Below the pieces are notes generated by a model. It did no database searches, was not told where the DNA came from, and saw only the letters and a program-made list of their open reading frames with translations. From assembly GCA_013336165.1 (NCBI GenBank), contig JAAXUF010000001.1, positions 1-64,000 of the forward strand: DNA of 64,000 bases, in the 5' to 3' direction. Origin of the DNA: Coriobacteriia bacterium. Its GTDB lineage: Bacteria; Actinomycetota; Coriobacteriia; Anaerosomatales; JAAXUF01. Of the stretch, positions 50,535-52,648 are shown piece by piece (within the stretch, counting starts at the first letter, position 1; every line of letters begins with the position of its first letter). The translations under genes were made by a program, and so were the position numbers.

Positions 50535-50611
50535 CGGGCTGTGGCGCAGCTTGGTAGCGCACTTGACTGGGGGTCAAGGGGTCGCAGGTTCAAATCCTGT
50601 CAGCCCGACCA
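50535..50611 (+). tRNA. tRNA-Pro (anticodon GGG)
   Basis: A complete cloverleaf: the acceptor CGGGCTG (50535-50541) pairs with CAGCCCG (50601-50607), discriminator A, and CCA is encoded (50609-50611). The anticodon stem CTTGA/TCAAG encloses loop CTGGGGG, so the anticodon is GGG, reading proline CCC/CCU. The T-arm is GCAGG-TTCAAAT-CCTGT. D-arm GCGC..GCGC is visible. The gene reads towards the hipBA unit and its 3' end is duplicated 2 kb downstream. Confidence 0.96.
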
Positions 50612-50650
50612 TCGCACGATCACGAGGCACCCTTCGGGGTGCCTCGTTTC
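50605..50650 (+). repeat. Left copy of a 46-bp direct repeat: tRNA-Pro 3' end plus terminator
   Basis: The repeat starts with the last seven bases of the tRNA (CCGACCA) and runs through its terminator. It matches 52603-52648 with a single difference at the hairpin loop (TTCG against TGCG); similarity fades over the next 16 bp and ends in a shared GGGAAT. The offset is exactly 1998 bp. It is the kind of duplication seen at tRNA attachment sites. Confidence 0.85.
50623..50646 (+). terminator. Terminator of tRNA-Pro
   Basis: CGAGGCACCC (50623-50632), a TTCG tetraloop and GGGTGCCTCG (50637-50646) form a perfect 10-bp stem, followed by TTTCGTCT. Confidence 0.8.
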
Positions 50651-50686
50651 GTCTACCGGCGGGAATGGGGGCGACGCGCGCCGAGC

Positions 50687-50703
50687 GCAGTTACAAACGC
50701 GTC
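50687..50703 (+). repeat. 17-bp junction motif, copy 1
   Basis: GCAGTTACAAACGCGTC. Exact copies lie at 52578-52594 and 55359-55375, all on the same strand and all next to terminator-type repeats. Here it is just inside the left end of the hipBA unit, and the match stops after 17 bp. Confidence 0.75.
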
Positions 50704-50760
50704 CCGCCAGTGTTCGGCAGCACCAGGGCGACCCCTAGGTCTGCATCCGAAGTCGCCCCG

Positions 50761-52080
50761 CTAGACCGCCAGTCGCAGATTCCTGCTCACTGTCTCGCGT
50801 AATCCGTTGGGCACACCGTGCTCGGCGGCCAAGACGTCCCATCGCGATACGTGTTCGACCGTCTCGTCGATCACTTCGTCGATTCTCCGCTTCGTGAACA
50901 GCGGGCTCAGCCGCTGGACAGCGTAGAAGTCCTCTCTGGTGAAGTCGTCCCGTTTCCCGTTGAGTGTCATCCAGTGGCTTGCGACCCACGGGCTTCCGGG
51001 CTTGTAGCTGTAGGCGAGGTCGTACGCGGGCGCCAGTCGCCACCGACCGTCCTCGTCGAGCATGAACGAGACGTTCTTTGAGTGGTCGTCGTGGTTACGG
51101 GCAACGATGTTGAAGACCATGCGCCTGAACAGCTGCATCGCGTCCTCGGCGCCGAGTCCGAGCTCCCGCGCAGTGGCGAACAGCTCGGCGTAGGAGTAGG
51201 AACCCGCCCGCTTGTAGCTGACGTGCGCCAGGGCGTTCAGCGTCTGGACGTGGCGTTTGCGGTTGCCCACTCGGTCGAAGCGCTGCGTGATGAAGTGACG
51301 CCGGTTTCCCTCGTCGAGGAGTCGACAGGGCATCATCTCGATTTCGCAGGCGGTCGCCATGAGATAGTACACATACTCCATCGCGCCGTAGCCCAATGGG
51401 TCGCCGAACGTCTCCTCGCTCCGACTATGCTCGCTCACACCGTCGAACTTCATGATGCAGTGCGTGAAACCGTCGGGGACGTCCACCTGCCCGGATCGCA
51501 CACTGGTGAAGTCGTCGTTGAACGCGAGAACCGCCTTTGGGCGAGCGCCTCCCGCGCTCACGCCCACTGAGAGCAGCGCGAGCATAGCGTCCTCGTCGTT
51601 TCGGCCGTGGGCGCCGAGCTGCACCCCGAAGTCTGCGCGCTCGTTGAGGACCTCCTGGGCAACCGCGACGAGCGACTCTATTTCGACCTGCTGTGAGGCG
51701 TTCAGACCCTTGCGTCGTTCGGCGGGGTGATAGCTGAGCGCGCCCATGCCGCGCTGGCCGATGTACTTGAGGCGCTCGATCGGGGTGATGTCGGCGGTCG
51801 AACGACCTCGACTGGCGGTCCAGGCCGCCAGCACCGCGTTTCCGAAGTCGTCGGGTAGTGAGTCGGCGATCATCCCAGGCAGGCCGTGGAACACCTCAGG
51901 ATCTGCCTCGGGGAACGAATAGACGCGGGCGGACAGCGCCATCTTGAGAGGTGAGAGCTCGATGCCTGTCCTCACGAAGTGAGGCTCGTACTCGAACGAG
52001 CCAAGGCCGGTCTCGGTATCGTAGCTGATTGCTCCCACATCCAGCTCACCGCATCTGACGGCCGCGACGTCCGTCACCAT
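50761..52080 (-). CDS. hipA: HipA-family serine/threonine kinase toxin
   Basis: Type II toxin that in E. coli phosphorylates glutamyl-tRNA synthetase and induces persistence. The N-terminal subdomain (GSFEYEPHFVRTG) precedes the HipA kinase core with SVGVSAGGARPKAVLAF, the basic FDRVGNRKRH, and the catalytic region VARNHDDHSKNVSFML followed by LAPAYDLAYS (Mg-binding Asp). Length is 439 residues, close to E. coli HipA. ATG at 52080 overlaps the end of hipB by 7 nt. The target here is unknown. Confidence 0.92.
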   Translation of the reverse strand: MVTDVAAVRCGELDVGAISYDTETGLGSFEYEPHFVRTGIELSPLKMALSARVYSFPEADPEVFHGLPGMIADSLPDDFGNAVLAAWTASRGRSTADITPIERLKYIGQRGMGALSYHPAERRKGLNASQQVEIESLVAVAQEVLNERADFGVQLGAHGRNDEDAMLALLSVGVSAGGARPKAVLAFNDDFTSVRSGQVDVPDGFTHCIMKFDGVSEHSRSEETFGDPLGYGAMEYVYYLMATACEIEMMPCRLLDEGNRRHFITQRFDRVGNRKRHVQTLNALAHVSYKRAGSYSYAELFATARELGLGAEDAMQLFRRMVFNIVARNHDDHSKNVSFMLDEDGRWRLAPAYDLAYSYKPGSPWVASHWMTLNGKRDDFTREDFYAVQRLSPLFTKRRIDEVIDETVEHVSRWDVLAAEHGVPNGLRETVSRNLRLAV

Positions 52081-52418
52081 GAGGTCTCATCCTTCTTGAC
52101 ACGAGTCGGCGTGGGCTTGTTCTTGGCTCTCGACGCTCTCTGGCGCTCACGGCCTCTGAGCTTCGCGAGCTGGAGAGGCGAGATCTTCTGCACGGGCAGG
52201 AACGCATCCAGCTGGTTCACCATGTTCATCGCGAGGAGGATGGCGACGAGGTTCTCAAGCTGAACACGTCCCTGCTCAGCGGCGACCACGGTCGGTCGAC
52301 TGAGGCCCGCACGTGACGCCACCTCGGCTTGCGTCAGGTCTGCGTTCAGCCGGGCATTTCGCAGCCGATCGCCCAACTCGTCGGCGATGGCTGTTGGTGA
52401 CATGTTCTCAAATGTCAT
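52074..52418 (-). CDS. hipB: HipB-like XRE-family antitoxin
   Basis: A 114-residue helix-turn-helix protein upstream of hipA. The Cro/XRE domain is in LGDRLRNARLNADLTQAEVASRAGLSRPTVVAAEQGR, followed by a basic, Arg/Lys-rich C-terminal region that is longer than the E. coli HipB tail. It should bind and repress the hip promoter and neutralise HipA. I use the ATG at 52418; TTG at 52430 is a longer alternative. The promoter region upstream is AT-rich. Confidence 0.87.
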   Translation of the reverse strand: MTFENMSPTAIADELGDRLRNARLNADLTQAEVASRAGLSRPTVVAAEQGRVQLENLVAILLAMNMVNQLDAFLPVQKISPLQLAKLRGRERQRASRAKNKPTPTRVKKDETSW

Positions 52419-52431
52419 AATGTCCACCAAC

Positions 52432-52463
52432 CTTTACAGTAAGTGAGAATAGCACTCGTAAAG
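52432..52463 (-). promoter_or_regulatory. Probable hipBA operator
   Basis: Arms CTTTAC (52432-52437) and GTAAAG (52458-52463), with inner AAGTG and GCACT, form an inverted repeat of 32 bp directly upstream of hipB. On the minus strand a -10-like TATTCT lies within it. The location fits autorepression by HipB, and the surrounding 70 bp is unusually AT-rich for this genome. Confidence 0.6.
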
Positions 52464-52577
52464 TAATCGATAATTGACATTGTAGCATATGAATACTGTT
52501 CACGTACTCGCAGCTGCGTTCGGTTGCCGCAGGTCCTCAACTGGAGCGGCCGAGTCTGGCCTCGATTCGCGCTCGCA

Positions 52578-52609
52578 GCAGTTACAAACGCGTCTACTAA
52601 GTCCGACCA
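52578..52609 (+). repeat. 17-bp junction motif, copy 2, extended to 32 bp
   Basis: GCAGTTACAAACGCGTC followed by TACTAAGTCCGACCA. The whole 32 bp matches 55359-55390 with one difference. It runs directly into the right tRNA-Pro repeat, so it forms the right-hand end of the hipBA unit. Confidence 0.78.
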
Positions 52610-52648
52610 TCGCACGATCACGAGGCACCCTGCGGGGTGCCTCGTTTC
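52603..52648 (+). repeat. Right copy of the 46-bp tRNA-Pro/terminator direct repeat
   Basis: Begins CCGACCA, as in the end of tRNA-Pro, and includes a terminator hairpin (CGAGGCACCC, loop TGCG, GGGTGCCTCG at 52621-52644). Only the last seven tRNA bases are present, so no second tRNA exists here. Confidence 0.85.

Follow-up and report, generated by a model that had tools for sequence, protein, structure and literature searches.

The window, the 64,000-nucleotide stretch of contig JAAXUF010000001.1 that was analysed, comes from a Coriobacteriia bacterium of the order Anaerosomatales and carries at least two small gene cassettes in tandem behind a tRNA-Pro(GGG) gene, the first of which holds hipBA; a third cassette is probably present. 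The order read was tRNA-Pro, hipBA, a PAS-GAF-SpoIIE phosphatase, and a TetR/flavoprotein/Fe-S group, the third boundary being less certain. The features are as follows:

50535..50611, plus strand: intact tRNA-Pro(GGG), whose final 8 nt (50604-50611, CCCGACCA) form the core of the first junction
50622..50647, plus strand: terminator-type hairpin right behind the tRNA (inverted repeat ACGAGGCACCCTTCGGGGTGCCTCGT), taken to be the left end of cassette 1
50690..50703, plus strand: left-end arm of cassette 1, GTTACAAACGCGTC, 86 nt from the core, from the arm search
50761..52080, minus strand: hipA, 439 aa (PF07804, HipA_C, 1.4e-50; PF13657, Couple_hipA, 2.1e-15)
52074..52430, minus strand: hipB, HTH antitoxin (PF13560, 4.9e-9; PF01381, 2.1e-7)
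52574..52609, plus strand: right-end site of cassette 1, CGCAGCAGTTACAAACGCGTCTACTAAG, with core TCCGACCA
52620..52645, plus strand: second hairpin of the terminator type, with which cassette 2 is taken to begin (left end)
52678..52691, plus strand: left-end arm of cassette 2, GTTCCAAACGCATC, two mismatches, 76 nt from the core
52891..55221, plus strand: cassette 2 cargo, PAS-GAF-GAF-SpoIIE/PP2C-type phosphatase (PF07228, 1.9e-45; PF13185, 1.4e-19)
55355..55390, plus strand: right-end site of cassette 2, GTTACAAACGCGTCCACTAAG, with core TCCGACCA
55391..55453, plus strand: left end of cassette 3, a second-type hairpin 95% identical to 59117-59179
55626..56339, minus strand: cassette 3 cargo, TetR-type regulator (PF00440, 6.2e-6)
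56402..58303, plus strand: cassette 3 cargo, fumarate-reductase-type flavoprotein (PF02910, 3.8e-19; PF00890, 3.9e-15)
58341..59036, plus strand: cassette 3 cargo, Fe-S subunit (PF13085, 1.7e-23)
59088..59179, plus strand: decayed junction with core CCCGGCCA (59109-59116), then a second-type left-end hairpin (site score 16.7; hairpin repeat 60/63)

The hipBA genes were predicted to encode a type II toxin-antitoxin system in one operon, based on Pfam matches to the N- and C-terminal domains of HipA and to an HTH antitoxin; hipB and the start of hipA overlap by a few bases, and the predicted kinase motif of HipA (NHDDHSKN) appeared intact by eye. A search of plasmids returned distant HipA relatives only. 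The GC contents of the three units (0.62, 0.61, and 0.58) were close to that of the flank (0.61). Adjoining DUF6323 and DUF6179 genes (59348-60845) separate the last junction from an ABC-F gene, and the latter recurs in arrays of other genomes.

Comparison of positions 50605-50650 of the window with 52603-52648 gave 45 identical positions out of 46 at a spacing of 1998 bp. The original prediction, made from the sequence alone, had described this 46-bp repeat with one difference, covering the last seven bases of tRNA-Pro and the terminator behind it, with hipB and hipA between the copies; alignment, genome search, and Pfam all confirmed it. The repeat stretches to 65 nt with 89% identity, and in a whole-genome search the 65-mer matched only two places in the 1.99-Mb genome (E values of 3.9e-28 and 8.9e-19), so the repeat is not due to chance. 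The second copy is preceded by GCAGTTACAAACGCGTCTACTAAG, a sequence absent from the tRNA, and the far border of the hipBA unit bears an extra 36-bp site, CGCAGCAGTTACAAACGCGTCYACTAAG followed by YCCGACCA, which is likewise not present in the tRNA. When the whole genome was searched with up to three mismatches allowed, the sole other place for the arm plus YCCGACCA was 55358-55390 (site at 55383). The 63 nt after this core reappear at 59117 (60 of 63 identical, 95%), so the array continues beyond the end given for it earlier, and hipBA, which had been taken as a single unit ending at 52648, turned out to be the first of a tandem series. The junction at 59109 is weak alone, given its score and decayed core; together with the site at 55383, it leads us to read the window as holding the hipBA and phosphatase cassettes and probably the TetR/flavoprotein/Fe-S cassette. 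Within the left end, the arm occurs once more at 50690-50703, in a search that gave four arm matches against 0.35 expected.

Examination of 36 sites showed that information content was high from -28 to +7 and dropped at the CCA end. In each cassette, the right-end site GCAGTTACAAACGCGTCYACTAAG abuts the next YCCGACCA; the sequence of the right-end arm is also given as GTTACAAACGCGTCYACTAAG. The site matrix was trained on part of these 36 sites, and pattern searches with controls therefore serve as the independent test. With up to two mismatches, 7 of 52 junctions had the left-end arm in direct orientation at +76 to +87, so that it was detectable in a minority of cassettes only; the controls gave 0/49 at +400, 0/52 at -300, and 0/52 for the reverse complement, and a control window at +800 gave three matches, presumably right ends of short cassettes. 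Transposon-type terminal inverted repeats were considered and rejected, since the two arms are direct repeats and the reverse orientation was never found. A strong hairpin stands directly 3' of 30 of 35 sites (mean of -24.2 kcal/mol versus about -15 elsewhere), and folding upstream of the boundary equals background (mean of -14 to -15). This terminator is the left end of the next cassette and varies between cassettes, with sequences of one type found repeatedly in many of them; what identifies a cassette is therefore not the terminator but the right-end site of 36 bp together with its arm.

The genomes used for comparison were nearly all draft MAGs, one per species, with contig breaks at repeats. 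A conserved frame was recognized in them, consisting of DUF190, tRNA-Pro, a variable region, corA, and pgsA. Near-contiguous empty sites, in which tRNA-Pro is directly followed by corA or pgsA, were found in eight genomes: corA begins about 97 bp after tRNA-Pro in G031, with G025 and G046 alike, and pgsA lies directly behind it in G006, G008, G021, G033, and G037. In the genome of the window, corA is about 16.3 kb from tRNA-Pro. The hipBA block also occurs in a genome of a different family (G041), with 91.9% identity in coding and 68.3% in intergenic DNA, 35 identical positions out of 36 (97.2%) in the site, and 53-68% identity beyond the core. This collapse of identity beyond the site places the right edge of the hipBA homology at the core. 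The next neighbor is the phosphatase in the window and a DUF488 gene in G041, where an MNT-HepT pair stands before hipBA; in G026, from another family, an MNT-HepT pair 82% identical to that of G041 lies alone between tRNA-Pro and the site. Exchange between families also extends to further blocks, which occupy different array positions. Insertion at the tRNA 3' end and the idea of a minimal passenger cassette, both part of the original prediction, are upheld by the empty sites and by the hipBA block of the other family, which ends at the same site. Relatives with both repeats and no hipBA, which had been expected under simple terminator duplication, do occur; other site-bounded genes lie between their repeats, and this supports a cassette system over simple duplication.

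A search for the same ends elsewhere, proposed at the outset, found the full site at 26 places in 20 of 69 Anaerosomatales genomes (reversed control, 0) and in 16 of the 40 genera of the order that were sampled. The 21-nt arm was found in 18 of 400 Coriobacteriia genomes, all Anaerosomatales, and in 0 of 331 other Coriobacteriia; among the arm matches listed, every one coincides with a site having a YCCG-type core. The viral contigs gave no match to the full site and one arm-only match without a core, which was taken as chance. In most loci with both on one contig, the sites lie behind tRNA-Pro(GGG), singly or in series, and the intervals (n = 29) have a median length of 1838 bp and a range of 172-8917 bp. 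Cargo elsewhere includes genes for DUF4062/ATPase, DUF4143 ATPase, HepT-type ribonuclease, catalase, catalase-peroxidase with FUR, hemerythrin, DsbA-like protein, aldo-keto reductase, cation efflux, Na/Ca exchanger, histidine kinase, DUF2252, and DUF488. A cassette of G011 (L102:2176-10774) carries a complete Gabija pair, GajA (2.4e-277) and GajB (3.0e-247), and SbcCD-like genes between two sites. G060 has its site on a contig apart from tRNA-Pro (L108:14421-14449), and the end of a LuxR/MalT-type regulator gene coincides with the site both there and in G057 (L045:1986-4799). Another site lies on a contig labelled Opitutaceae (L068, JAUYAK010000113.1), which was probably mis-binned and possibly reflects transfer beyond the order.

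Judging from sequence comparison, we consider it likely that the array consists of small integrase-less cassettes joined at the 3' end of tRNA-Pro(GGG) by a site-specific recombinase supplied in trans. Because different genes occupy this position in relatives across the order, it resembles a common site for collecting genes, with the recombinase encoded elsewhere. Each cassette would begin with the last 8 nt of the tRNA (YCCGACCA), continue with a terminator hairpin of its own and then the cargo, and finish with the right-end site. A recombinase acting in trans would insert the circular form of a cassette either at the tRNA end or at a junction already present, with the crossover falling within YCCGACCA; the tRNA would remain whole, and the new terminator would come with the incoming left end. 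Since each cassette carries a terminator, the tRNA would never be left without one as cassettes are added. The core is flanked by the arm motif at -21 and at about +84, an arrangement suggestive of a lambda-type tyrosine integrase, and the likeliest source of the enzyme would be the integrase family typified by G011 C131:10937-12073, whose members lie behind the same core-hairpin-arm layout. A more ambitious reading, which we regard as possible and somewhat doubtful, is that of a dedicated gene-collecting system on tRNA-Pro, in which integrase-less cassettes from one shared pool, each with a terminator and both arms, would be captured by a trans-acting recombinase and exchanged across Anaerosomatales families as a functional tRNA-based counterpart of integrons. 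The cargo of such a pool would comprise toxin-antitoxin, oxidative-stress, metal transport, and signalling genes.

As the original prediction had stated for the hipBA unit, no integrase accompanies the cargo: an integrase profile run over the array loci found no intact recombinase gene inside any complete cassette. Over the downstream regions read, the profile matched only G011 and G014, the match in G053 being upstream of the tRNA; that in G014 is a short C-terminal integrase remnant just after tRNA-Pro. The tyrosine integrases of the 20 array genomes belong mainly to the XerC/XerD and IntI groups, all further groups being uncommon. The G011-type family (reference gene at C131:10937-12073; 10934-12073 in L102) has members beside tRNA-Pro or tRNA-Val: an intact gene in G004 ends about 125 bp after tRNA-Pro, an integrase in G030 that is 94% identical to that of G011 lies beside a tRNA-Pro half, and those of G042, G031, and G001 adjoin tRNA-Val. 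Assignment of the L102 integrase to another tRNA was dropped because the family is found at both. The left ends in G004, G014, G042, G031, and G001 show a core, a hairpin, and paired arm repeats (+76 to +79), which is the cassette layout with arms (GTGTAGCAACGCG) that differ from the cassette arm; at the far end, the integrase elements keep about 46 bp of the tRNA and the cassettes 8-10. Many array genomes are without a G011-type integrase, and no genome was found with an intact integrase and the exact cassette arm within one element. Because the layout is common to both and the arms and far ends differ, a trans-acting enzyme from this family is something that we infer, with moderate support.

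A large serine recombinase gene lies beside tRNA-Pro in G058 (L236:683-2209), and its reading frame, on the strand opposite to the tRNA gene, terminates within that gene (C-terminus LTGFEPATP). PF07508 gave no match in the genome of the window and a match beside tRNA-Pro in G058 only, and a large serine recombinase as the general driver was rejected on this ground. Arms at +84 are not expected for large serine recombinases, which also counted against them.

The units might instead be decayed remnants (strict CIMEs) of larger elements that accumulated at tRNA-Pro with an integrase and have since lost it, moving, if ever, only with a neighbor. Integrase-bearing elements do use this tRNA (G004 and G030, the G014 remnant, and the G058 serine recombinase), the window left ends at 55391 and 59117 resemble those of integrase elements, and Dehalococcoides ssrA islands without integration modules have been explained in this way (PMC3146451). 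We judge this origin unlikely, because the units are small and regular (29 intervals, median 1.8 kb), the right-end site is order-wide and unlike the ends of integrase elements, left arms are kept, and hipBA occurs in another family with its site more constrained than the flanks. Travel by transformation and homologous recombination through conserved flanks and terminators, with the repeats as scars, would fit the conserved flanking genes and the recurrence of one terminator type in many cassettes; however, it leaves unexplained a 36-bp site that ends exactly at the tRNA CCA and is absent from the tRNA, the fact that this site exceeds coding DNA in conservation between the two hipBA blocks, and shared blocks that occupy different places in different arrays, and it appears very improbable. 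An array driven by a chromosomal IntI seems more improbable still. Although 46 of the 69 order genomes have an IntI that passes the NCBIfam cut-off (TIGR02249; G000:C22:4693-5634 in the genome of the window and 45 others), it is not enriched in array genomes (12/20 versus 34/49 others), no intI lies beside the array (contig C22 versus C1), and the background-level folding upstream of the boundary indicates nothing like attC, GTTRRRY being unmatched by eye.

Taken at order level, the cassettes appear to be a new form of tandem cis-mobilizable elements located at a tRNA, and the array would work like a set of candidate cis-mobilizable cassettes; the literature searched yielded no paper describing such arrays for Anaerosomatales. 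The closest analogue is the ssrA islands of Dehalococcoides, which stand in tandem behind one RNA gene and carry strain-specific cargo. A short stretch of the 3' end of that gene is repeated there, and each repeat is directly preceded by a conserved 15-bp motif not from the RNA gene; some islands lack integration genes, and the authors suggested that they may be cis-mobilizable elements (PMC3146451). The tandem order, the 3'-end repeat, the motif before it, and the integrase-less units are alike. However, the Dehalococcoides target is tmRNA and the integrase is a serine recombinase, DsiB, found on 16 islands (PMC3146451), whereas the present cassettes lie at tRNA-Pro, have arms flanking the core, start with a hairpin, and are smaller, and the genome of the window has no DsiB-like serine integrase. 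With CIMEs they share tandem segments flanked by attL/attR-like repeats (the 46-bp repeat and the 36-bp sites) and containing no integrase or transfer genes, the latter as judged from Pfam annotation of the window cargo only; they differ in their small size, their spread over the order, and their uniform right-end site, which is unlike that of the integrase elements known at this locus; those elements have the tRNA and the left-end layout in common with the cassettes but bear different arms. Integrons likewise hold single-copy genes or small operons in tandem that are exchanged between lineages, but the present array is without an adjacent intI or an attC-like fold and is anchored on a tRNA gene. 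The pdif modules of Acinetobacter are also small, often carry toxin-antitoxin genes, and are bounded by sites of a recombinase encoded elsewhere; they are set apart, by description, by XerCD/dif sites and a mostly plasmid location, in contrast to a chromosomal tRNA 3' end. Tycheposons and other tRNA-associated islands similarly exchange cargo anchored on a tRNA, but they carry tyrosine recombinases and the cassettes here do not.

Integrase-less islands at tRNA genes are usually dismissed as remnants. One defined site beside varied cargo makes trans mobilization of passenger cassettes, as a standing gene-exchange system, testable, and the site is a simple search string for mapping cassettes, several of which carry toxin-antitoxin or stress genes, in a poorly known subsurface lineage.

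Two further observations concern elements around these tRNA genes. The near-identical integrases of G011 and G030 (L102:10847-12360; L273:2100-3640) are flanked on one side by an end of the tRNA-Pro type and on the opposite side by the 3' half of a tRNA-Val, which suggests that this element has used both tRNAs. In G053 (C10), G058 (C21), and G011 (C182), the 5' half of tRNA-Pro is found again 12-15 kb upstream, suggesting that other elements have inserted in the anticodon loop of the tRNA-Pro gene.
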